A stretch of 64,000 bases of DNA from Fibrobacter sp. (GCA_012523595.1 JAAYIG010000222.1:1-64000); one strand, 5' to 3'. Counted from the first letter of the stretch, positions 30,212 to 52,961 are shown. Translations and numbers: made by a program. The notes: generated from the sequence alone by a model not told the origin.

Positions 30212-31324
30212 ATGAAAACAGAGCGCTTTACAGTTCACTACAGCATTGATGCCCCGGATATAAATACCGCTGAGCAGATCGCAAGCGATATCACAGTTGA
30301 ACAAACGGTGGAAATTCCCTTTGTTTGTATTCCTCAAAAACATTTCGAAGAGGGCCTGATCGGGAGAATTGAATCCCTGGAAGCTGGAGAAAAGTGTTAC
30401 CATGCCGGCATAAGTTTCCGCAGTGACATTACTTCATTTCAGGTAACTCAATTCCTCAATGTTCTTTACGGAAACATCTCACTTAAAACCGGTATTAAGG
30501 TTGTGGATATTACATTTTCCCCCTCTTTCTACTCCCGTTTCAGGGGGCCGGCACTGGGTATCAAAGGACTGCGGAAACTTACCGGCATTTACAACCGTCC
30601 TCTTGCCTGTACAGCTCTGAAGCCGATGGGTTTGTCAATTGACGGACTGGTATCGATGGCGGAGAGCTTTACTGCGGGAGGAATCGATCTGATCAAGGAT
30701 GACCACGGGATTACAGACCAGGAGTTTCATTGCTTTGAGGAACGGGTTACGCACTGCGCTGATGCTGTGGAGAGAGTAAACAGTTCCACCGGCGGAAACA
30801 CGCTCTACTTTCCGTGTGTGAGCGGAACCTTTGACACAGTAGAAAGGCAGGTACAGTTTGCTGTGTCCAGAGGTATCAAAGGGATCCTCATAGCGCCCAT
30901 GCTTTCCGGTCCGGACACAGTCCGTTACCTCTCCGAAAAGTACCGGATAACAATCATGGCCCACCCCGCCTTCACCGGCTCCTTCTTTGCCAACAGACTC
31001 AGCGGTATCGCTCCATCTGTACTTCTGGGAAAAGTTTTCCGCCTAATCGGTGCAGATATCTCTGTTTTTCCCAACTGGGGAGGGAGATTCCCTCTTAGTA
31101 AAGATGATTGTACGGGTATTGCAGAAGCATTAAGGGAGGAGTCCGGATGGAGAGGAGCATTTCCCTGCCCTGCGGGCGGAATGAATCTAAGCAGACTCCC
31201 GGAGATGATCAGTGTATACGGGAAAGAAACAGTTCTTCTGATTGGAGGCGCGCTGATGCAGGATAACAGAGGGATAGAGAAGAGCACATCCGATTTTATG
31301 GAGAGAATCAGAAATATCCGGTAA
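30212..31324 (+). CDS. RuBisCO-like protein (form IV type)
   Basis: This 370-residue protein has both RuBisCO large-subunit domains: an N-terminal domain to about residue 110 and a TIM barrel. The first active-site Lys is kept (TALKPMGL, Lys137), while the second Lys of KPK is Met139. The carbamylated-Lys segment reads GGIDLIKDDHGITDQEF: Lys162 and Asp164 are kept but the metal-ligand Glu is His165. Loop 6 has FPNWGGRFPLS with no Lys334 equivalent. It therefore cannot be a CO2-fixing RuBisCO; form IV proteins catalyse enolase, isomerase or decarboxylase-type steps in sulfur or sugar-acid metabolism. No methionine-salvage gene is in view. Its 3' end is three bases from that of a convergent PHP protein. 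Confidence 0.88.
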   Translation: MKTERFTVHYSIDAPDINTAEQIASDITVEQTVEIPFVCIPQKHFEEGLIGRIESLEAGEKCYHAGISFRSDITSFQVTQFLNVLYGNISLKTGIKVVDITFSPSFYSRFRGPALGIKGLRKLTGIYNRPLACTALKPMGLSIDGLVSMAESFTAGGIDLIKDDHGITDQEFHCFEERVTHCADAVERVNSSTGGNTLYFPCVSGTFDTVERQVQFAVSRGIKGILIAPMLSGPDTVRYLSEKYRITIMAHPAFTGSFFANRLSGIAPSVLLGKVFRLIGADISVFPNWGGRFPLSKDDCTGIAEALREESGWRGAFPCPAGGMNLSRLPEMISVYGKETVLLIGGALMQDNRGIEKSTSDFMERIRNIR

Positions 31325-33476: not shown

Positions 33477-33767
33477 TTTCCTCAGGAAGTTACTTCCGCT
33501 TTTCTGTACCTGCCTCTTTGCCTCTATGTCTCCTTTACACAATTATTTACCGCCACAAATAAAACCGTCAAATTCATCATACACCTCTACTCTGCCTGCC
33601 TGATCAATACCCTGTCTCCGATTTATTCGTTGGCGTTTCCCTTTAAAACACTTATTTTAGTCCTTTGCTAAAACTAATTCCAGAAGGAGGCACTTATCTC
33701 CACTGCAACTTCCAGACCGCGTGACATTCAGGCGATTATAAGTTCTCTGAACCGCTATCCATCAAAG

Positions 33768-35729
33768 ATGCCAAAGGATGACTTTTATCCGGTTGCCTAT
33801 TATTATATGTACCTTTCCAGGACAATGGACTGCAGATTCAAAGAGCTCTTCAGGAAAGGACATGTAAAGGGAACCGTTATTCTCTGCAATGGAAATGAAG
33901 CCACAGCTGTCGGGGCTGCAATGCCTTTCCGTCCGGGTAAAGATATCATATCAATATTACACCGGGATCTTGGAGCCCACCTTGTATCCGGGGCTTCTCC
34001 TTTTTCCCTGATGTGTCAATACATGGCCAATGAAAAGAGTCCCACTCACGGCAGAGAGGGAAATGTTCATCATGGTGATGCCGCAAACAGACGGTTTCCC
34101 ATGATAAGTCATCTTGGCAGCATGCTTGCCCCTGCGGTTGGAGGAGTATGGGCAGCAAGAAGAAACGGAGAGGATGTATTCGGCTTAACCACTATTGGTG
34201 ATGGGGGCAGCAGCACCGGAGAATTTCATGAATCCCTGAACCTGGCATCTGTACAGAGAGTTCCCATTCTCTTTGTCATCGAAAACAATCATTACGCATT
34301 TTCCACTCCGACATGCCTCCAGTACAACTGCACTCAGCTCTCTGACAGGGCGAAAGCTTACGGCATAGAGGGAAAGACAATTGACGGAACAGATGCCTGG
34401 GAAGTTTACAATGCGGTTTTTGACTTCCTGGAGGGAATGAAAGAGGATTCTCTTCCAAGAATTCTTGAATGCATGACACTGCGTCTGGAGGGTCATGCGG
34501 TTTACGATAATGCGGAATATGTCACCGATGAGGAGCGTCAGGAGTGGTTAAAGAGGGACCCTCTAAAAAAGGCTCGTTTATCTCTGCTTCAGTGCGGGTA
34601 TACAGAAAAAGATGTCCTATCGCTCGAAGAGAGTATCGAGAAGGAATTGGAGAGTGTAATCGAAGATGCACTGGCTACTCCGCGTCCCAGTGTATCTACA
34701 CAGAACTTTGATGTTTACGCTCCGGAAACCGTATCAAAAGTAAAACCTTTCAGGATGCCGAATGCGCGCAACCTGAACGCGGTAAATGCAGCTCTTGAAT
34801 ACCTGCTTTCCGAAAACAAAAACGCCTTTATCTGTGGACAGGATATCGGTAAATACGGTTCTGCTTTTAAAACCTGTAAAGGTCTGATTGACAAATTCGG
34901 ACCTGAAAGGATAATAAACACACCTATCTGCGAGTCTGCAACTGCCGGTTTTTGCCTCGGCGCCTCCCAGACCGGATCTCTGCCTGTGATGGAGTTTCAA
35001 TTTGCCGATTTCTCCACAGAAGCGGTCACTCAACTGGGGTTCAATGCAGGCACCTGGTTTTTCAGAGCGGGAGTTCCTGCACCGATTCTCTTCCGCTTGC
35101 CCTGTGGAGGTGGAATCACCCTGGGAGCATTCCATTCCGGAGAATTTGACGGGCTCTGGACCAGATTTCCCGGGTTAAAGATATTTTACCCTGTAACACC
35201 TCAGGAAACCTTCGAAGCTCTTCTGGCGGGATTCTATGATCCAAATCCATGTATCGTTCTGGAACACAAACTTCTTTACTGGGGGCGGCAGGAAGAGATC
35301 TCTTTCGATGGTGATCTTGGAAAAATCGCCCGTCCCAGAAAGTACACTGAAGGATCGCAGTTAACAGTAGTTGCCCTGGGAGCGATGGCTGAATCTGCTG
35401 CTTCTGTCGTGAAAAATCATAATTATTCCGCTGAGGTATGGAATCCATTTATATTAAAACCTTCGGTTCTTGATCCCATAATCGAATCGGTAAACAATAC
35501 CGGTAAACTACTGGTTGTACAGGAGAGCGGTTCCACGGCAGGCCTGGGGGACAGGATAATATCTATTATCTGCAGAGAATGTTTTTCAAATCTGAAATGC
35601 GCACCGGCTCTGTTGAGCGCACCTGACATGCCGGTCCCTTTTGCAAAAGAACTGGAAAGCATTTATATTCCTAGTCAAGAAAAGATTCGTGAAAGTATAG
35701 AATCGATGATTGGAGAGAGGTGTGAATAG
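33768..35729 (+). CDS. Fused alpha/beta 2-oxoacid dehydrogenase E1 component
   Basis: The 653-residue protein joins E1-alpha and E1-beta. The alpha half has HRDLGAHLVSG, the thiamine-diphosphate motif GDGGSSTGEF (residues 144-153) closing with NNHYAF, and RLEGHAVYDNAEYV. The beta half (from about 330) has CGQDIGKYGSAF, IINTPICESATAGFCLGA, MEFQFADF and the ending transketolase-C domain. Both active-site sets are present. It should decarboxylate a 2-oxoacid and acylate a lipoyl group; pyruvate versus branched-chain acid cannot be told. A strong AAGGAGG at 33684-33690 lies 78 bases before this ATG, with an open frame between, so translation may begin at an ATC at 33696. It directly precedes the lipoyl-ketosynthase gene. 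Confidence 0.9.
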   Translation: MPKDDFYPVAYYYMYLSRTMDCRFKELFRKGHVKGTVILCNGNEATAVGAAMPFRPGKDIISILHRDLGAHLVSGASPFSLMCQYMANEKSPTHGREGNVHHGDAANRRFPMISHLGSMLAPAVGGVWAARRNGEDVFGLTTIGDGGSSTGEFHESLNLASVQRVPILFVIENNHYAFSTPTCLQYNCTQLSDRAKAYGIEGKTIDGTDAWEVYNAVFDFLEGMKEDSLPRILECMTLRLEGHAVYDNAEYVTDEERQEWLKRDPLKKARLSLLQCGYTEKDVLSLEESIEKELESVIEDALATPRPSVSTQNFDVYAPETVSKVKPFRMPNARNLNAVNAALEYLLSENKNAFICGQDIGKYGSAFKTCKGLIDKFGPERIINTPICESATAGFCLGASQTGSLPVMEFQFADFSTEAVTQLGFNAGTWFFRAGVPAPILFRLPCGGGITLGAFHSGEFDGLWTRFPGLKIFYPVTPQETFEALLAGFYDPNPCIVLEHKLLYWGRQEEISFDGDLGKIARPRKYTEGSQLTVVALGAMAESAASVVKNHNYSAEVWNPFILKPSVLDPIIESVNNTGKLLVVQESGSTAGLGDRIISIICRECFSNLKCAPALLSAPDMPVPFAKELESIYIPSQEKIRESIESMIGERCE

Positions 35730-35730
35730 A

Positions 35731-37041
35731 GTGCCATTTAAAACGGTGCTGTACCTGCCATCTCAGGCAGCAGCGGAAACGGAAGCCACTGTCACAAGGT
35801 GGCATGTAAAACCGGGAGAGAATTTTAACAAGGGCCAGATATTTGCCGAGGTGGAGAGCGCAAAGTCCACATTCGAATTCGAAGCTCCTTGTGATGGCAA
35901 AGTCATCTCCATCCTCTGCCAGGAAGGTAACTCAACATCCTTTGATTCTCCCGTCATTGAAATAGAAACCAGCGACACATCACTGAAAAAAACCATTCCC
36001 ACCGCAGGAAACAAGGCTCCGGAATTTCCCCAGATGGAAATCACGGCTGTCGAGAAGCTGCATGAACCGCAGATACGCACAATCTCCATGCTGGGTATAG
36101 GAACCTATCTTCCTGAAAGGATTGTAGCCAACAGTGAAATCCTGGTCGATCATCCGGACATCACTGAGGATTATATCTTTGGAGTAACCGGCATAAGGGA
36201 GCGCCGCTGGGCAAAGAAGGATGAAAAGCCCTCTGATATGGCCTATGCAGCATCACTGCAGGCAATCCGGAATTCAAATCTCACTCCTCAGGAGATAGAT
36301 GCTATCGTAGTGTCAACTACCACTCCTGATGTAATGATGCCATCGACAGCCTGCATACTGCAGGGAAAACTGGGAATAAGAGGCGTGCCGTCATTCGACA
36401 TAAACGCTGCATGCTCAGGATGGCTCTACGGGATTTCTGTAGCTAAAGGACTGATATTATCCGGAATGGCACAGAACGTCCTCGTTACAGCAGTTGACAT
36501 GCAATCAAGACTTCTCGATAAAAAAGACAGAAACACCTACTTTCTCTTCGGTGATGGAGCCGGAGCAACGGTAATTTCAGGCAACCAGCCCGGACACACA
36601 ATTAAGTGTGAAATTCTCACCGCCGATGCCGGCGGACTGCACATGGCCAGAAGAGAATACAAAGGCTACGAGGTACCTGCAAATACCACAGATTCCGACC
36701 CCTGGATCCGCCTTGACGGAAAGGCGCTGTTCAGGTTTGCAACCGAAAGCTTCTCATCACTGGTCAGGGAACTGATCATAAAGAGTGGATGGCAGCCTTC
36801 GGACATACGATGGATCGTACCGCATCAGGCCAACAGCAGAATCCTTAAAGCTGCGGCACAGAGAAGCGGCGTCCCATTCGACAGATTCTATCTGAATATC
36901 GACAGAGTCGGAAATACATCAAGTGCAAGTATCCCGATTGCCCTTTCTGAAATAGAGCGCGGACTGCAGAAAAACGACAAAATCATCTTCTGCACAGTCG
37001 GCGCGGGAATCACCGCCGGCGGTTTGTCAGTCGAGTGGTGA
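35731..37041 (+). CDS. Lipoyl domain fused to 3-oxoacyl-ACP synthase III (FabH-like)
   Basis: The GTG at 35731 lies one base after the E1 stop and has GAGAGAGG ten bases upstream; 436 residues follow. Residues 1-80 are a lipoyl/biotinyl domain (VTRWHVKPGENFNKGQ, VESAKSTFEFEAP) with Lys45 in the lipoylation position. A Pro-rich linker lacks the peripheral-subunit-binding motif of E2 proteins. Residues about 115-436 are a full KAS III: Cys228 in INAACSGWLYG, His365 in PHQANSR and Asn395 in GNTSSAS, i.e. the complete triad. The E2 acyltransferase domain normally downstream of a lipoyl domain is replaced by the synthase. I infer that E1 loads the lipoyl arm and the synthase uses that acyl group to prime chain elongation. 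E3 and ACP must come from elsewhere. Confidence 0.88.
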   Translation: MPFKTVLYLPSQAAAETEATVTRWHVKPGENFNKGQIFAEVESAKSTFEFEAPCDGKVISILCQEGNSTSFDSPVIEIETSDTSLKKTIPTAGNKAPEFPQMEITAVEKLHEPQIRTISMLGIGTYLPERIVANSEILVDHPDITEDYIFGVTGIRERRWAKKDEKPSDMAYAASLQAIRNSNLTPQEIDAIVVSTTTPDVMMPSTACILQGKLGIRGVPSFDINAACSGWLYGISVAKGLILSGMAQNVLVTAVDMQSRLLDKKDRNTYFLFGDGAGATVISGNQPGHTIKCEILTADAGGLHMARREYKGYEVPANTTDSDPWIRLDGKALFRFATESFSSLVRELIIKSGWQPSDIRWIVPHQANSRILKAAAQRSGVPFDRFYLNIDRVGNTSSASIPIALSEIERGLQKNDKIIFCTVGAGITAGGLSVEW

Positions 37042-37198: not shown

Positions 37199-37918
37199 AT
37201 GGAAACCTCAACCGGGGAAGATTTACCCTCTCTGCAGGCACCTTCGAGTGCTGCCGGACACAGGATGCGGCTGCTGGAGCGCTTCATATCCTCCGGTATC
37301 ACCGCTTTTCACCCCCATGAAATACTGGAACTGCTGTTAACCTATGCTATTCCCAGGCAGGATACAAAGACTCTGGCCAAAGCCCTTATCTCAAGATTCA
37401 GAAGTATCGGTGGAGTGATAAACGCATCACCTGAGGAGCTCATCGAGGTAAAAGGAATCACCCGCCGAACCGCATTCCTCTTCCCTCTCCTTAAGGACAT
37501 CATGGGAATCTGTCTCAGGGAGAGATACGAAAAGCAGGAGATCATTTCTCACAGGAGAGATGTTGAGGAGTATCTGAGGTTTTATTTCGGGCAGCGCAGA
37601 GATGAGTATGTTGCTTCTCTTTTTCTTGATAATGCCAACCACATCATCAAAACAGAAATCGTTTCTGAGGGTATTGTTAATCAGTGTGCTGTTTACCCCC
37701 GGGCCATAGTGGAGAAGGCACTTGGCTGCGGAGCCGCATCTGTGCTTCTTGCCCACAACCATCCTGGCGGCGGACTCAATCCCTCCGAAGCCGACTGGCT
37801 TCTGACCGAAAGGATTTTTCAAATTGGCAAACTGCTGGAATTACCGCTTCTTGACCATATAATTATCTCCAGCAATAAGGTAGTCAGCCTCAGAGACCTG
37901 CCCCGCTGGCCTCATTGA
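37199..37918 (+). CDS. radC: RadC-family (JAMM/MPN) protein
   Basis: The 239-residue protein has N-terminal helix-hairpin-helix-like helices (AFHPHEILELLLTYAIPRQD ... INASPEELIEVKGI) and the JAMM motif with EIVSEG and LLAHNHPGGGLNPSEADW, so the zinc ligands His-x-His and the Asp are intact. It ends in the family segment LDHIIISSNKVVSLRD. Despite the name, a role in DNA repair is not established. It shows no clear link to its neighbours. Confidence 0.93.
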   Translation: METSTGEDLPSLQAPSSAAGHRMRLLERFISSGITAFHPHEILELLLTYAIPRQDTKTLAKALISRFRSIGGVINASPEELIEVKGITRRTAFLFPLLKDIMGICLRERYEKQEIISHRRDVEEYLRFYFGQRRDEYVASLFLDNANHIIKTEIVSEGIVNQCAVYPRAIVEKALGCGAASVLLAHNHPGGGLNPSEADWLLTERIFQIGKLLELPLLDHIIISSNKVVSLRDLPRWPH

Positions 37919-38069: not shown

Positions 38070-38120
38070 CGGTTTAAGATAGATATTACAAAACACTGTT
38101 CAATAGTGTATTTTCTTCTC

Positions 38121-40469
38121 ATGCATCCGTGTTTCCGTTTTCACAGTTTCTCAATAGCTTTACTTTACATCTTGCTACTGATCTCCCAGTCATTCGCTGG
38201 AAAAATTGTTGGGAATGTGAAAAATGCCCAGACCGGAAAGCCTCTCTCCGGAGTGATGGTTGAAATAGAGGGCAGTGATATTTCTACGCTCACAGATTCC
38301 ACCGGTTTCTTCAGGTTTGAATCGGTTCCCTCAGGCTCCTTCAACCTCCTCTTTTTTCATGAAAAATCTGAGCCTTTGTCAATAACCGATATCTTTGTGC
38401 CAGGTGATGGAGAGAAGAGGATTGACGCAGAGATGAATCCGGTTATTGCCAATCTGGAGAAGATGGTTGTGACCGGGCATGCATTTCGCCGCGCTCCTGA
38501 CATGTCATCATCCACAAAGATGATGAACTTTGATGAAATCCTGCGCTCTCCCGGAGCACTGGTTGACGTTCAGAGAGCTGTTCAGGACCTCCCCAGCGTC
38601 TCATCGGCTGCAGATAATACCAACGAGATCATTGTCAGAGGGGGAAATCCGGGAGAAAACCTTCTTATAATGGATAATATTGAAATTCCCAATCCAAATC
38701 ATTTTGCAGACCAGGGTTCCGGAGGCGGTGTCATCTCCCTTATCAATCCTCTTCTTGTAAAAGGCCTCACCTTTAACGCCGGAGCACCCCCGGCCCAGTA
38801 CGGAGGGAAAGCGTCATCGGTATTGGATGTCAAGCTACGGGAAGGGAACGATAAAATTGTGCTTGGAGGAGTGGACCTGGGGATGGCAGGAGTGGGATTT
38901 CATGCAGAAGGTCCTCTCTGGAGAGGTGCCAATTTCATGGCTTCTGCCACAAAAAGCTACCTCGACCTCTTCTCAAAATTTGCCGATGCTACAGCGATTC
39001 CTGAATACTGGGGTTTACAGGGGAAAGTCGCACAGAATATCGGCAGCCAGAAACTTTACGCCAACTTCATATATGGTGACAACGCAATAGAGATCGCGGA
39101 TGCCAGCGGGCAGATAGGTACCGACGGGGATGAGATCGAGGCCGGAGGAAAGGTTTATGCAGCAGGTGTAAGCTGGGAGGGAAACTGGGGGGAAAGATTC
39201 TCGACACTGGTAACACTCTCAGGAACCGGAAACAGTTTTGAAAGGCTTGAATACTCAATTAACCCCGATGACACCCGTGATACATTCTTTACCAATACAT
39301 CGATGGAACAGGAACAGACCATCAAGGTACAGGGTTCACTCGATCTGCCCAGAAACACCCGGATTCAGGCCGGAATTCTGGCCAGACGATGCGATTTTGA
39401 TATCGATATCTGGGAGCGTCCCGACACTATCAACGACTCTGTATACCACAGAGCAGCGAAATCCGGCCAGATCGCTTACAAGTACGGTGGATTTATCTCC
39501 GGGATTTTCTATCCTCTCGATCAGCTGAGATTCATTCCCGGTATACGCGTCGATGGGTTTACATACAATCAAAACCGCTATATCTCTCCCAGATTGGGAC
39601 TTGTATATTCTTTCCCCTCAGGAATAGATCTGACCGGTTCTTTCGGGATACAATATCAGGACCCGGACTACGCCGATCTTGTGGCAACGAAACAGAACAA
39701 AAATCTCAAGCCACGGAAAGCCACCACAGGTATCCTGGGTGCAGAGTATCTACTTAAGAAGATTTCCGCCAAAACGGTGGTTGAGACATACTATAAGCAA
39801 TATGATGATCTTCCGGTGGAAGAAGCACTGATGACCCCGGACAGCCTCGATAAATCAGACGTTCTCCTCTCGGTGGGTAAAGGCAGAAGTTATGGAATAG
39901 AGTTTTTCATCCAGAAAAAATTGACACGCAATTTCTTCTTCACTGCTGCCTACTCACTCTCCAGGTCTGAATACCTTGACCCCAGACCAGGCCGGGAAAA
40001 CCAGTGGTACCGTGGTGACTTTGACTTCCGCAATGCCCTGACTGTTACCGGCGGCTGTAAAATCGATCTTATAGAGAAAGAATGGTATAAAAAGGTCCAT
40101 GATTCCTGGTGGCTCATCGCCCTCTCCCCTGTCATCCCCATCGCAGACCGGGTCGAGCTTTCGGCAAAATGGAGATACCTCGGAGGACGCCCCAGAACTC
40201 AGCCTGTCTGGAACAAAGAATACGAGCGATGGGTGTTAAATCAGCATGACCTGAACTCTTCACAATACCCTGATTACCACAGGCTGGATCTGCGATTTGA
40301 GCGGCGCTACGGCTTTGGATTTCTGCATATGATTTACTATTTTGATCTTCAGAATATTTATAACAAGAAAAATATCTGGAACTACATGTATTCTAACCAT
40401 CACGCAAGTGAAACACCCATTTATCAATTTCAGTTTTTTCCGGCAGGAGGGGTGATCATTGGATTTTAA
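38121..40469 (+). CDS. TonB-dependent receptor-like outer-membrane protein
   Basis: From the ATG at 38121 the protein has 782 residues with a signal peptide (FSIALLYILLLISQSFAG). A carboxypeptidase-regulatory-like domain follows (GNVKNAQTGKPLSGVMVEIEG), then a plug: SAADNTNEIIVRGGNPGENLLIMDNIEI and a barrel rich in aromatic strands to FFPAGGVIIGF. The ending is the aromatic residue usual for barrels. No TonB box is obvious. The start lacks a good ribosome site; a GTG five codons earlier is an alternative. Its last 11 bases overlap the ligase gene downstream, suggesting co-translation. Confidence 0.88.
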   Translation: MHPCFRFHSFSIALLYILLLISQSFAGKIVGNVKNAQTGKPLSGVMVEIEGSDISTLTDSTGFFRFESVPSGSFNLLFFHEKSEPLSITDIFVPGDGEKRIDAEMNPVIANLEKMVVTGHAFRRAPDMSSSTKMMNFDEILRSPGALVDVQRAVQDLPSVSSAADNTNEIIVRGGNPGENLLIMDNIEIPNPNHFADQGSGGGVISLINPLLVKGLTFNAGAPPAQYGGKASSVLDVKLREGNDKIVLGGVDLGMAGVGFHAEGPLWRGANFMASATKSYLDLFSKFADATAIPEYWGLQGKVAQNIGSQKLYANFIYGDNAIEIADASGQIGTDGDEIEAGGKVYAAGVSWEGNWGERFSTLVTLSGTGNSFERLEYSINPDDTRDTFFTNTSMEQEQTIKVQGSLDLPRNTRIQAGILARRCDFDIDIWERPDTINDSVYHRAAKSGQIAYKYGGFISGIFYPLDQLRFIPGIRVDGFTYNQNRYISPRLGLVYSFPSGIDLTGSFGIQYQDPDYADLVATKQNKNLKPRKATTGILGAEYLLKKISAKTVVETYYKQYDDLPVEEALMTPDSLDKSDVLLSVGKGRSYGIEFFIQKKLTRNFFFTAAYSLSRSEYLDPRPGRENQWYRGDFDFRNALTVTGGCKIDLIEKEWYKKVHDSWWLIALSPVIPIADRVELSAKWRYLGGRPRTQPVWNKEYERWVLNQHDLNSSQYPDYHRLDLRFERRYGFGFLHMIYYFDLQNIYNKKNIWNYMYSNHHASETPIYQFQFFPAGGVIIGF

Positions 40470-41769
40470 ACCTGAATATTCATGGGAATTTTTATCACAA
40501 GATGAGATACAGGCAAAAACGCTGCGGGCATTGCGTAACCATATCAGACACGCTAAGGAAGTATCTACTTACTACAAAGAAATGTTGTGGGACATTGCAC
40601 CTGAGGACATAAAATCTTTCGAGGATTTTCAGCGTGTCCCCTTTACAGGAAAAACTTCCCTTGCTGAACACAATTCCCGTTTTCTGGGATGTGATCCCGG
40701 ATCGGTCGTGGAGACAGTTGTAACAAGCGGTTCTACCGGAAAACCGGTTCATTTCGCACTTACATCAAATGATCTGGAACGGCTCGCTTTTAACGAAGCG
40801 CTCTCATTCCACAGCATCGGGATTCATCCCGGCGACACTGCTCAGATCCTTGTCAGCCTCGACAGGCTCTTTATCGCCGGAATGGCCTACTACAGAGGAT
40901 TGACACTGCTTGGAGCCAATACCATGCGTATCGGCGTGCTGCCAATTGAGATGCAGAAACACTATATCGAGACATTCTCACCAACAGTTCTGATAGGTGT
41001 GCCTTCTTTTATCAAAAAACTTGGGCTTGAGCTTTCCAAAACCTCTTTCGATACAGTAAACAGCTCGGTGAAGAAAATTATCTGCATCGGTGAATCTCTG
41101 CGCACCCAGGACATGGAGCTTAACTCCGTCGGCAGATCCATTCAGGAAATTTGGGGAGCAAAGGTATTTTCCACCTACGCTTCCACAGAGATGTCCGTTT
41201 CCTACTGCGAATGCTCGGAACAACTGGGCGGTCATGCTCACCCGGAACTGGTTTACACAGAGATTGTCGATGAATCGGGGAAACCAGTTCCTGATGGTAC
41301 TCCGGGAGAGCTGGTAGCTACCCCTCTGGGGATAGAAGGGATGCCGCTGATCAGATACAGAACCGGAGATATCACATTCTCTATCACGCAACCCTGTACC
41401 TGCGGGAGAAATTCGATACGTATCGGTCCGATCCTGGGACGTAAATCACAGATGATAAAACTGAAAGGGACCACGGTGTATCCGCTGGCCATCACAAATG
41501 CCCTGGATGAGATCGAGGAGATTAAAGACTATATCATTATTCTTGAGAATGATGATTCCCTCTCGGACAGGGTGGCTATTCATGTGGCTACAACACCGGC
41601 TTCGGTCGAGAAAATTTCCAACCGGCTCAGAGCTGTTGCAAGGGTAAATTTTCCGGTTCTGGTTTCAAATATCGCTACCATTCAATCACTTCGCGGCGCA
41701 TCACGCAAGAAGATACGCATACTTGACTGGCGCCAGCAGGTCCTTGGCAAATCGACGAGCCTTAAATGA
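40459..41769 (+). CDS. PaaK/CapK-like AMP-forming ligase
   Basis: The gene starts at a TTG (40459) inside the receptor gene, with AGGAGGGG six bases upstream. The 436-residue protein is an adenylate-forming enzyme of the phenylacetate-CoA ligase type: the phosphate loop TSGSTGKPVHF, the adenine-binding YASTEMS, GELVATPLG and RYRTGDIT with the conserved Asp, then a C-terminal domain with MIKLKGTTVYP. It would activate an aryl or fatty carboxylic acid; such proteins (CapK) also occur in polysaccharide and lipid clusters. It overlaps the glycosyltransferase by four bases. Confidence 0.87.
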   Translation: MDFKPEYSWEFLSQDEIQAKTLRALRNHIRHAKEVSTYYKEMLWDIAPEDIKSFEDFQRVPFTGKTSLAEHNSRFLGCDPGSVVETVVTSGSTGKPVHFALTSNDLERLAFNEALSFHSIGIHPGDTAQILVSLDRLFIAGMAYYRGLTLLGANTMRIGVLPIEMQKHYIETFSPTVLIGVPSFIKKLGLELSKTSFDTVNSSVKKIICIGESLRTQDMELNSVGRSIQEIWGAKVFSTYASTEMSVSYCECSEQLGGHAHPELVYTEIVDESGKPVPDGTPGELVATPLGIEGMPLIRYRTGDITFSITQPCTCGRNSIRIGPILGRKSQMIKLKGTTVYPLAITNALDEIEEIKDYIIILENDDSLSDRVAIHVATTPASVEKISNRLRAVARVNFPVLVSNIATIQSLRGASRKKIRILDWRQQVLGKSTSLK

Positions 41770-42992
41770 AAGATACCCTGGAGTCATTACGGACTGTCGT
41801 CATAGTCCCAACCTACAATAATGTCCTCACTGTCTCCGGTGTTATCGCCGGCATTAAAAAGCATGTACGGGATATTATAGTTGTCAATGACGGTTCCACG
41901 GATGGCACAGCAGAGATTCTCCGTAGTGAAGAGGGAATATCCCTGATAGAGTTTCCCTCCAACCGCGGCAAGGGAGCTGCTTTGAAAGAAGCATTCAAGT
42001 TCGCTGTGGAAAAAGGATTTACACATGCTATAACCGTAGATGCTGACGGACAGCACATAAACGATGACATCCCGCTTTTTCTGCAGGCAATTGAAAGAGA
42101 ACCTGGAACTCTCTGGATCGGCGATCGCATCACTCCAGTTGAAGGCGGGCTGCCTCAACCGGCAAAATCCCGGTTCGGACGACGGTTCGGCGCATTCTGG
42201 TACAAGTTCTATACCGGTATTTATATCCGGGACACACAATCAGGATTCAGGGCCTATCCTCTGAGGGAGATCTCCTCTATCAACTGCAGAGGTGAACGTT
42301 ATGAATATGAAATCGAGATCCTGATCTGCACCGCCTGGAGACACATACCTGTCAAGAGTATCCCGGTTCACATTCTCTATCATGAAGAAAGAGTGTCGCA
42401 TTTTCACCCTGTGCGGGACTTTATGCGCATAAGTAAAATCAACTCCAGGGCGGCAATCTCCAGAATTTTCTTTCCCCGGAAATACCTTGAATCCGGAGGT
42501 CTGGAGATAAGAGAAAAAATTCTTTCCCTGATTGTCAATGAGTTACGCTCGAATGCCACTCCGTCCAGAGCCGCGTTTTCCCTTGCATTCGGAGTATTCA
42601 TGGGAGTAACTCCCATTCATGGTTTCCAGGTGATAACACTTCTTGCCCTGGCCATAGTACTCCGCCTCAATAAACCACTTGCCATGCTGGGAGTAAGTGT
42701 ATCCTCTGCACCACTGCTTCCATTCTGGATCGCCGCCGGTATCTGGACAGGAAAAGTGATACTTCCCCAAAACCTCTTATCACCTGCATTATCTCTAATC
42801 AGATTACCGCAGGACAGCGCATTGCTGATCGGCTTTATTCATTTTGTAATCGGAAGTTTTGTGCTGGCAGTAGTCTGCGGTATAGCGGTGTTTTTCATCA
42901 GCCTGCCTGTCTTCCGCTCAATCCGCGGAAGAAGAAAGTTCCTGTTGAGAAGTCCCTTTGTAAAGGCTGTTGAAAGTATCCCTGAGAAGTGA
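41766..42992 (+). CDS. GT2 glycosyltransferase fused to DUF2062
   Basis: The ATG overlaps the ligase stop (ATGA). Residues 10-235 are a GT-A family 2 transferase of the dolichol-phosphate-mannose-synthase type: VVIVPTYNN, VNDGSTDGT, NRGKGAAL and VDADGQH with the DxD metal site. Residues about 260-400 are a DUF2062 membrane domain: GVFMGVTPIHGFQ followed by three hydrophobic segments. The fusion suggests sugar transfer at the inner face of the membrane, possibly onto a lipid. The last 75 bases overlap fliS on the other strand. Confidence 0.87.
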   Translation: MKDTLESLRTVVIVPTYNNVLTVSGVIAGIKKHVRDIIVVNDGSTDGTAEILRSEEGISLIEFPSNRGKGAALKEAFKFAVEKGFTHAITVDADGQHINDDIPLFLQAIEREPGTLWIGDRITPVEGGLPQPAKSRFGRRFGAFWYKFYTGIYIRDTQSGFRAYPLREISSINCRGERYEYEIEILICTAWRHIPVKSIPVHILYHEERVSHFHPVRDFMRISKINSRAAISRIFFPRKYLESGGLEIREKILSLIVNELRSNATPSRAAFSLAFGVFMGVTPIHGFQVITLLALAIVLRLNKPLAMLGVSVSSAPLLPFWIAAGIWTGKVILPQNLLSPALSLIRLPQDSALLIGFIHFVIGSFVLAVVCGIAVFFISLPVFRSIRGRRKFLLRSPFVKAVESIPEK

Positions 42993-51788: not shown

Positions 51789-52961
51789 TCAGTGATGAAA
51801 GAGTCTGATATTACTGAACGCCATTACCATCCCGTACTCATTACAGGCCTCTATCACAATGTCATCCCTTTTAGAGCCTCCGGGCTGAACAACATATTTC
51901 ACGCCGCTCTGCTGTGCTCTGTCAATAGAATCCCTGAACGGAAAAAACGCATCAGATGCAAGCGATATTCCGTTCATCAGATTGAGCCACTCTCTTTTCT
52001 CCTCACTTGACATCCGATTCGCCGGCACTTCGAAATTATTCTGCCATGTATACTGTTCAGCCGGGGTAAGATTCTCCTCCAAAAACTGATCTATGGCATT
52101 ATCCCTCTCCGGTCTGCCAATCTTCTCTTTGAACTTGAGTGCAAGCACAATAGGATGCTGTCTCAGGAACCAGCGGTCCGCTTTGGATGCGGCAAGTCTT
52201 GTGCAGTGAATTCTTGACTGTTGCCCGGCTCCTATTCCTATAGCCTGCCCCCCATAAGCGAAACAGACTGAATTAGACTGGGTGTATTTAAGCGTGATCT
52301 GTGCCAGTATAAGATCCCGCTTTGCATCCTCAGGCAGTTCCTTGTTCTCTGTTACCATGTTCTGAAGAGAATTACCGGTAATCTCTATTGTGTTGCGTTT
52401 CTGTTCAAAGCTTATTCCGAAAACCTCTCTGGTTTCCATCTCCGGCGGCTGATATGAGGGATCTATCTCCAGAACCACATAAGCGCCTTTTTTCTTTTCT
52501 TTAAGGATGTCAATAACTCCGGGTTCATACCCGGGAGCAATCACACCGTCAGATACTTCACATCTAAGGAGCCGTGCGGTAGCCAGATCAACAGGATCGC
52601 TCAGCGCGGCAAAATCCCCGAAGCTCGATACCCTGTCCGCGCCTCTTGCCCTGGCGTAAGCCGAAGCGAGGGAAGAGAGTTCCATATCCTCCACAAAAAA
52701 GGCTTTCTTGAGTTCTTTTGTCAATGGCAGTCCAATAGCTGCACCGGCCGGACTGACATGCTTGAAAGAAGCAGCCGCAGACAGCCCGGTAGCTTTGCGC
52801 AGCTCTGCTACAAGCTGCCATGAGTTTAACGCATCCAGCAGATTTATATATCCGGGGCTTCCGTTAAGCACTTTGAGCGGAAGATTTCCTCTGCCCGAAA
52901 AAATCCGGGCTGATGCCTGATGAGGGTTGGCGCCATACCTTAGCAGCAGTTCATTTGACAT
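51789..52961 (-). CDS. purH: AICAR formyltransferase without the IMP cyclohydrolase domain
   Basis: This 390-residue protein corresponds to the C-terminal, AICAR transformylase part of bifunctional PurH: LRYGANPHQASARI, FKHVSPAGAAIG with the catalytic Lys-His, and the ending YVVQPGGSKRDDIVIEACNEYGMVMAFSNIRLFHH. The MGS-like cyclohydrolase domain is absent, so the last step to IMP must be made by another protein. The symbol applies to the transformylase half only. It starts 11 bases after lysA. Confidence 0.92.
   Translation of the reverse strand: MSNELLLRYGANPHQASARIFSGRGNLPLKVLNGSPGYINLLDALNSWQLVAELRKATGLSAAASFKHVSPAGAAIGLPLTKELKKAFFVEDMELSSLASAYARARGADRVSSFGDFAALSDPVDLATARLLRCEVSDGVIAPGYEPGVIDILKEKKKGAYVVLEIDPSYQPPEMETREVFGISFEQKRNTIEITGNSLQNMVTENKELPEDAKRDLILAQITLKYTQSNSVCFAYGGQAIGIGAGQQSRIHCTRLAASKADRWFLRQHPIVLALKFKEKIGRPERDNAIDQFLEENLTPAEQYTWQNNFEVPANRMSSEEKREWLNLMNGISLASDAFFPFRDSIDRAQQSGVKYVVQPGGSKRDDIVIEACNEYGMVMAFSNIRLFHH

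Follow-up and report, generated by a model that had tools for sequence, protein, structure and literature searches.

The 64,000-nucleotide stretch of Fibrobacter sp. DNA analyzed here (the window) carries, on its forward strand, a gene for a fused, thiamine-dependent E1 alpha-beta 2-oxoacid dehydrogenase (33768..35729), followed by a gene for a 436-amino-acid protein that joins a lipoyl domain to a ketoacyl synthase III (KAS III) domain (35731..37041). The E1 stop codon TAG ends at 35729 and the GTG start of the next gene is at 35731, and the spacing of one base given in an earlier, sequence-only reading of this locus is thus exact. Both halves of an alpha/beta-type E1 are found as a single chain in one frame of at least 653 amino acids, with Pfam/NCBIfam matches to E1_dh (1.6e-52), Transket_pyr (5e-27), and Transketolase_C (1e-19). 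The thiamine diphosphate motif GDG...ENN (E1 residues 144-174, from G144-D-G to E-N-N174; 34197..34289) and the catalytic GH/HS histidines are invariant in an alignment of six homologues. The chain shows the three domains and the GDG...NN thiamine motif of alpha2beta2-type E1 enzymes; intact thiamine motifs had also been described from the sequence alone. With regard to the start of this gene, E1 homology runs 5' of the ATG at 33768, where there is no in-frame ATG, GTG, or TTG; as a purine-rich, Shine-Dalgarno-like AAGGAGG is located at 33684..33690, the true start probably lies between this element and the ATG, suggesting a rare start codon. While the open reading frames and domains of the locus stand as first described, the E1 start codon is uncertain, which corrects the earlier description. 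E1 is predicted to act on a 2-oxoacid, most likely of the branched-chain type; in comparisons with solved enzymes in the PDB, E1alpha scored 124 and 118 bits against branched-chain enzymes and 95 bits against pyruvate enzymes, whereas E1beta, which pyruvate enzymes match at least as well as branched-chain enzymes do, does not discriminate.

The lipoyl domain of the second protein (35755..35964) was identified by a domain search (Biotin_lipoyl, 1.8e-13) and in an AlphaFold2 model of the fusion (12 related sequences, mean pLDDT 82), in which the barrel is modeled confidently and Lys45 (35863..35865), the predicted lipoylation site in the motif ESAKST, sits in the hairpin joining strands 37-43 and 47-51; ESAK is present in 27 of 27 fusions. 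A first model (7 sequences, pLDDT 58) was set aside. A flexible Ala/Pro-rich linker (35977..36078), variable in both length and sequence and disordered at residues 88-114 of the model, leads to the FabH-like KAS III condensing domain (36079..37038), which matches ACP_syn_III (5e-24) and ACP_syn_III_C (9e-28), exceeds the cut-offs of NCBIfam FabH models, and shows approximately 30-38% identity to solved FabH enzymes. Its fold, likewise modeled confidently, matches Staphylococcus aureus FabH (TM 0.90 to target), and FabH enzymes account for all of the best matches among solved structures. The domain combines this thiolase fold with a complete Cys-His-Asn triad, formed by Cys228 (36412..36414), His365 (36823..36825), and Asn395 (36913..36915), which align with E. 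coli C112, H244, and N274, respectively. By sequence and model, the protein also has the lipoyl domain with a putatively modifiable lysine that is expected of an E2. A Pfam scan detected neither a peripheral-subunit-binding domain nor a 2-oxoacid_dh (E2 catalytic) domain in the fusion, and no ACP domain in either the E1 or the fusion. The lipoyl lysine, the intact triad, and the replacement of the subunit-binding and E2 acyltransferase domains by a synthase, all of which the sequence-only reading had reported, were thus borne out.

A search for lipoyl-KAS III fusions and their gene neighbors, which that reading had suggested, identified the fusion in 27 of 168 Fibrobacterota genomes (26 full-length and one fragment), all of them within four families of the window's order, Chitinispirillales; in other Fibrobacterota orders, we found only stand-alone FabH, or nothing at the search threshold. 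Open frames in 27 genomes rule out an assembly chimera or frameshift. At every one of the 26 loci for which upstream sequence exists, an E1 gene lies directly 5' of the fusion (gap, -2 to +5 bases), and the same gene pair is present in six named relatives (Fibrobacter sp., Chitinispirillia, Chitinispirillales, and Chitinispirillaceae MAGs). When the best four candidates from each of 396 Bacteroidota genomes were considered, none of the matches listed (E<=1e-68) reached the lipoyl part, and no match in plasmids, phages, or viral contigs covered it. The KAS III domains of the fusions group in a single, fully supported clade on a long stem. Both domains of the fusion are under strong purifying selection, with dN/dS values between the window and a sister genome of 0.066 (lipoyl) and 0.042 (KAS III); the linker value was 0.41. 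A P-x-M motif in the linker was considered as an E1-docking site and is not claimed as such, as it is present in the window's family and absent from other families. Most fusion carriers also have an ordinary FabH, and the fusion therefore probably provides an additional, dedicated route for priming.

In FabH, Trp32 and Arg151 sandwich the adenine of CoA, to which Thr28 is bonded, and Arg36 touches the phosphopantetheine and phosphates of CoA (PMC4606726, PMC3734052). We compared these positions between 26 fusions and 38 stand-alone KAS III enzymes (18 from Fibrobacterota and 20 from Bacteroidota). Among the stand-alone enzymes, Thr28 and Trp32 were found in 38 of 38 and Arg36 in 37 of 38; in the fusions, by contrast, Thr28 is replaced by Ile or Val (25/26), Trp32 by Tyr (26/26), and Arg36 by Val (26/26), such that the CoA contacts typical of KAS III are missing, and Arg, Lys, or Met is found at position 151. 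The Mycobacterium tuberculosis FabH mutants W42A, R46A, and R161A (2ahb, 2aj9) presumably affect the equivalents of Trp32, Arg36, and Arg151; the numbering used here follows an E. coli FabH sequence whose length and key residues were checked. Cys112, His244, Asn274, and the ACP-docking Arg249 are invariant in all 26 fusions as well as in all stand-alone enzymes. Phe87, which lines the FabH primer pocket, is Met in 25 of the 26 fusions, a change that would be consistent with a larger pocket. In the window, Tyr148 and Val152 (36172..36186) replace Trp32 and Arg36, i.e., the residues in contact with the adenine and phosphate of CoA (PMC4606726). Judging from the alignment, the CoA-nucleotide site is degenerate in the fusions, whereas the catalytic triad and the ACP-docking arginine are intact. 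Loss of Arg36 need not discriminate against CoA alone, since this residue has also been assigned to phosphopantetheine, and, given the long stem of the clade, some of the changes may represent drift or reflect another kind of acyl donor. Many fusions have a basic residue at position 210, which counts against a CoA-free reaction; as a marker of the fusions, such a residue was ruled out because it is common in Bacteroidota FabH too. Separately, KAS III enzymes on three IMG/VR contigs (L135, L136, and L137) have Leu at the Arg36 position (WIYKKLGI, WIYNKLGI, and WIYEKLGI).

The E2 catalytic domain was searched for in 40 genomes of the window's order, and a full 2-oxoacid_dh domain was absent from eleven fusion-bearing genomes, with only a weak fragment in G021. 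Completeness of E2-free fusion genomes is 98% for G005, 97% for G006, 99% for G018, 98% for G030, and 91-92% for G009, G013, and G014; six of the eleven are at least 91% complete with at most 6% contamination. The chance that incompleteness hid a single-copy E2 in all seven is approximately 1e-10 if calculated naively and approximately 3e-7 for four lineages, values that are indicative only because the genomes are related. As E2 and the fusion show a weak positive association across the 40 genomes, loss of E2 is lineage-specific rather than caused by the fusion. Where E2 is found in G016, G024, and G017, it belongs to an unfused E1a-E1b-E2 operon that is distinct from the fused E1, with E3 directly 3' of this operon in G016 and G017. 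In the genome of the window itself, a fragment with E2 and E3 lies on a contig of 3.2 kb (C80), which ends at the E2 start. These genes were considered as partners of the fused E1, but this is disfavored in view of a complete, separate E1a-E1b-E2-E3 operon in the sister genome G016; its E2 and E3 are 70 and 81% identical, respectively, to those on C80, and the E1 genes belonging to C80 probably fall in a gap. E3 was identified in 37 of the 40 genomes (30 above the curated cut-off) and LipA above cut-off in 12 of 13 genomes, and a lipoate ligase, LplA, is present in the window's genome; E3 of E2-free genomes may serve glycine cleavage only.

We propose, as the likely explanation of this gene pair, that E1 and the fusion form a two-protein, CoA-independent condensing lipoyl complex. 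E1 would decarboxylate a 2-oxoacid, most likely branched-chain, and reductively acylate the lipoyl-lysine of the fusion; the lipoyl arm, on a flexible linker of approximately 30 residues, would swing into the KAS III tunnel and deliver the acyl group to Cys228; and His365 and Asn395 would drive decarboxylative condensation with malonyl-ACP to yield 3-oxoacyl-ACP. An E3 encoded elsewhere would reoxidize the dihydrolipoyl arm with NAD+, for a predicted net reaction of 2-oxoacid + malonyl-ACP + NAD+ -> 3-oxoacyl-ACP + 2 CO2 + NADH. The direct channel from dehydrogenase to synthase put forward in the sequence-only reading is well supported by comparative evidence, because E1 and the fusion are paired, E2-free carriers exist, the CoA site is changed, E3 and lipoylation genes are present, and the linker is relaxed; from this we infer direct lipoyl-to-Cys transfer and CoA-free chemistry. 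The lipoyl-lysine arm is somewhat shorter than the pantetheine arm, which counts against direct transfer. With slightly more reserve, we also consider it probable that a C-C-forming synthase replaces E2, and that fatty-acid or polyketide chains are initiated from a primer carried by lipoyl rather than by CoA or ACP. As for the product, the phospholipid fatty acids of the cultured relative Chitinispirillum alkaliphilum are dominated by anteiso-C15:0 and C16:0, with iso-C16:0 present (PMC4814513), which indicates that branched primers are needed in this group. The fusion thus probably primes anteiso/iso fatty acids, C. alkaliphilum being compared here by lipid profile and not by gene pair; this would be the most likely use of the 3-oxoacyl-ACP, with a specialized lipid or polyketide as the alternative. 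C. alkaliphilum converts pyruvate to acetyl-CoA through ferredoxin oxidoreductases and pyruvate-formate lyase (PMC4814513), and ferredoxin-dependent oxidoreductases could be another source of branched acyl-CoA in these anaerobes.

Compared with known systems, the pair resembles the branched-chain 2-oxoacid dehydrogenase complex (E1, E2, and E3) in its alpha/beta-type E1 and in a lipoyl domain predicted to be acylated by E1, but its E1 subunits are fused and a KAS III domain stands in place of the subunit-binding domain and E2 acyltransferase. In the canonical complex, the acyl group passes from lipoyl via E2 to CoA, and FabH then takes the acyl-CoA. The synthase shares its fold, catalytic triad, and ACP-docking arginine with FabH of Bacillus, Staphylococcus, and Xanthomonas; unlike FabH enzymes that prime branched fatty acids from acyl-CoA, it has an N-terminal lipoyl domain and has Thr28, Trp32, and Arg36 replaced. 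The nearest, partial precedent for an E1 complex tied to a ketosynthase is BkdABC of Photorhabdus luminescens, whose product is described as a 3-oxoacyl thioester, 5-methyl-3-oxohexanoyl, that goes into branched fatty acids, stilbene, and photopyrones (PMC4578411, PMC3838401, PMC4901931). Both systems link an E1 operon for 2-oxoacids, branched-chain in BkdABC, to a ketosynthase and, as proposed for the window pair, to 3-oxoacyl thioester formation. BkdB, however, has an ACP domain that needs a phosphopantetheinyl transferase, whereas the window pair lacks an ACP domain and has its lipoyl domain fused to the synthase itself, a distinction drawn from the published description of BkdB; BkdC is presumably the ketosynthase of that system. 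A described lipoyl-KAS III fusion was not found in the literature searched, with subscription papers mostly outside its scope, and the fusion is likely new to the literature; the earlier reading likewise knew of no described example, while the idea of coupling E1 to a ketosynthase was partly preceded by BkdABC. In known complexes, lipoyl passes its acyl group to CoA, a small carrier, whereas the evidence here suggests direct delivery to a condensing enzyme. If this is true, lipoyl would be a further type of primer carrier for fatty-acid initiation, the first C-C bond of a fatty-acid or polyketide chain would be built without free acyl-CoA in little-known anaerobes, and E2-free anaerobes would have a means to make branched lipids; the pair would also represent a ready-made, CoA-independent starter module for engineering.

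A possible, though less probable, variant retains the same direct transfer but assigns it to a specialized lipid, pigment, or polyketide made together with a FlxY-like ligase and a glycosyltransferase; it is a sub-case of the condensing lipoyl complex and not exclusive of it. In several families of the order, a PaaK/FlxY-like AMP-forming ligase gene (40459..41769, forward strand; 453 bits to FlxY_rubin, less than its cut-off of 520) is a conserved neighbor of the pair, and a gene for a GT2 glycosyltransferase with DUF2062 (41766..42992, forward strand) is found in most of these; this conserved neighborhood makes a specialized product possible, the functional link being suggested by synteny only, and BkdABC likewise supplies both branched fatty acids and secondary metabolites. 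By contrast, the pair also occurs with neither gene nearby (L007 and L008), and the anteiso/iso phospholipid fatty acids of the cultured relative need such a primer. It seems unlikely that the KAS III domain does not condense and serves only as an atypical E2, with Cys228 relaying the acyl group of lipoyl to ACP (or CoA) and a separate ketosynthase then using the acyl-ACP. KAS III enzymes do have transacylase activity, and the changed CoA site with retention of Arg249 would suit this role, but His365 and Asn395, which are dispensable for transfer and needed for decarboxylative condensation, are invariant in 26 of 26 fusions. Marginally less credible still is an ordinary CoA-dependent KAS III whose lipoyl domain is decorative or regulatory, in which case acyl-CoA would come from another enzyme and E1 would serve another E2. 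While stand-alone FabH uses CoA and several carriers have a PDH-type E2, this explanation is at odds with the constant pairing of fusion and E1, the eleven fusion genomes without E2, the position of PDH E2 genes next to their own E1 where inspected, the loss of CoA-nucleotide residues in the fusions, and selection on the lipoyl domain that is nearly as strong as on the synthase. Biotinylation of the lipoyl-like domain, which would indicate a biotin-dependent carboxylation or condensation protein, is very improbable, since, even though the Pfam model spans both cofactors and the genome has a BirA-like gene, the motif ESAKS(T) is that of lipoyl/GcvH sites and not the biotin AMKM, the closest matches are lipoyl E2 domains, and the partner gene encodes an E1, with no carboxylase nearby.

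Several other genes were observed around the pair or in the same genome. On the forward strand, radC (37199-37918) is located 3' of the pair, as it is in most other genomes of the order, with no apparent functional link, and a gene for a TonB-dependent receptor with a carboxypeptidase-like domain (38106-40469), also syntenic 3' of the pair, overlaps the ligase gene in several genera. A RuBisCO-like protein (30212-31324, forward strand; RuBisCO_large, 4e-22) is encoded approximately 2.4 kb 5' of E1, and a homologue is found 5' of the pair at L009 too. On the reverse strand, 51789-52961 encodes a 390-amino-acid protein of the AICARFT/IMPCHase family whose match to the Pfam model is confined to positions 77-311 and which is perhaps a stand-alone variant. 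Finally, on a 5 kb contig of the window's genome (L024; G000:C260, 1-2268), a ketosynthase gene of which only the end is present is accompanied by genes for a type III PKS of the chalcone-synthase type and for a methyltransferase, a gene set that may represent a polyketide or pigment cluster.
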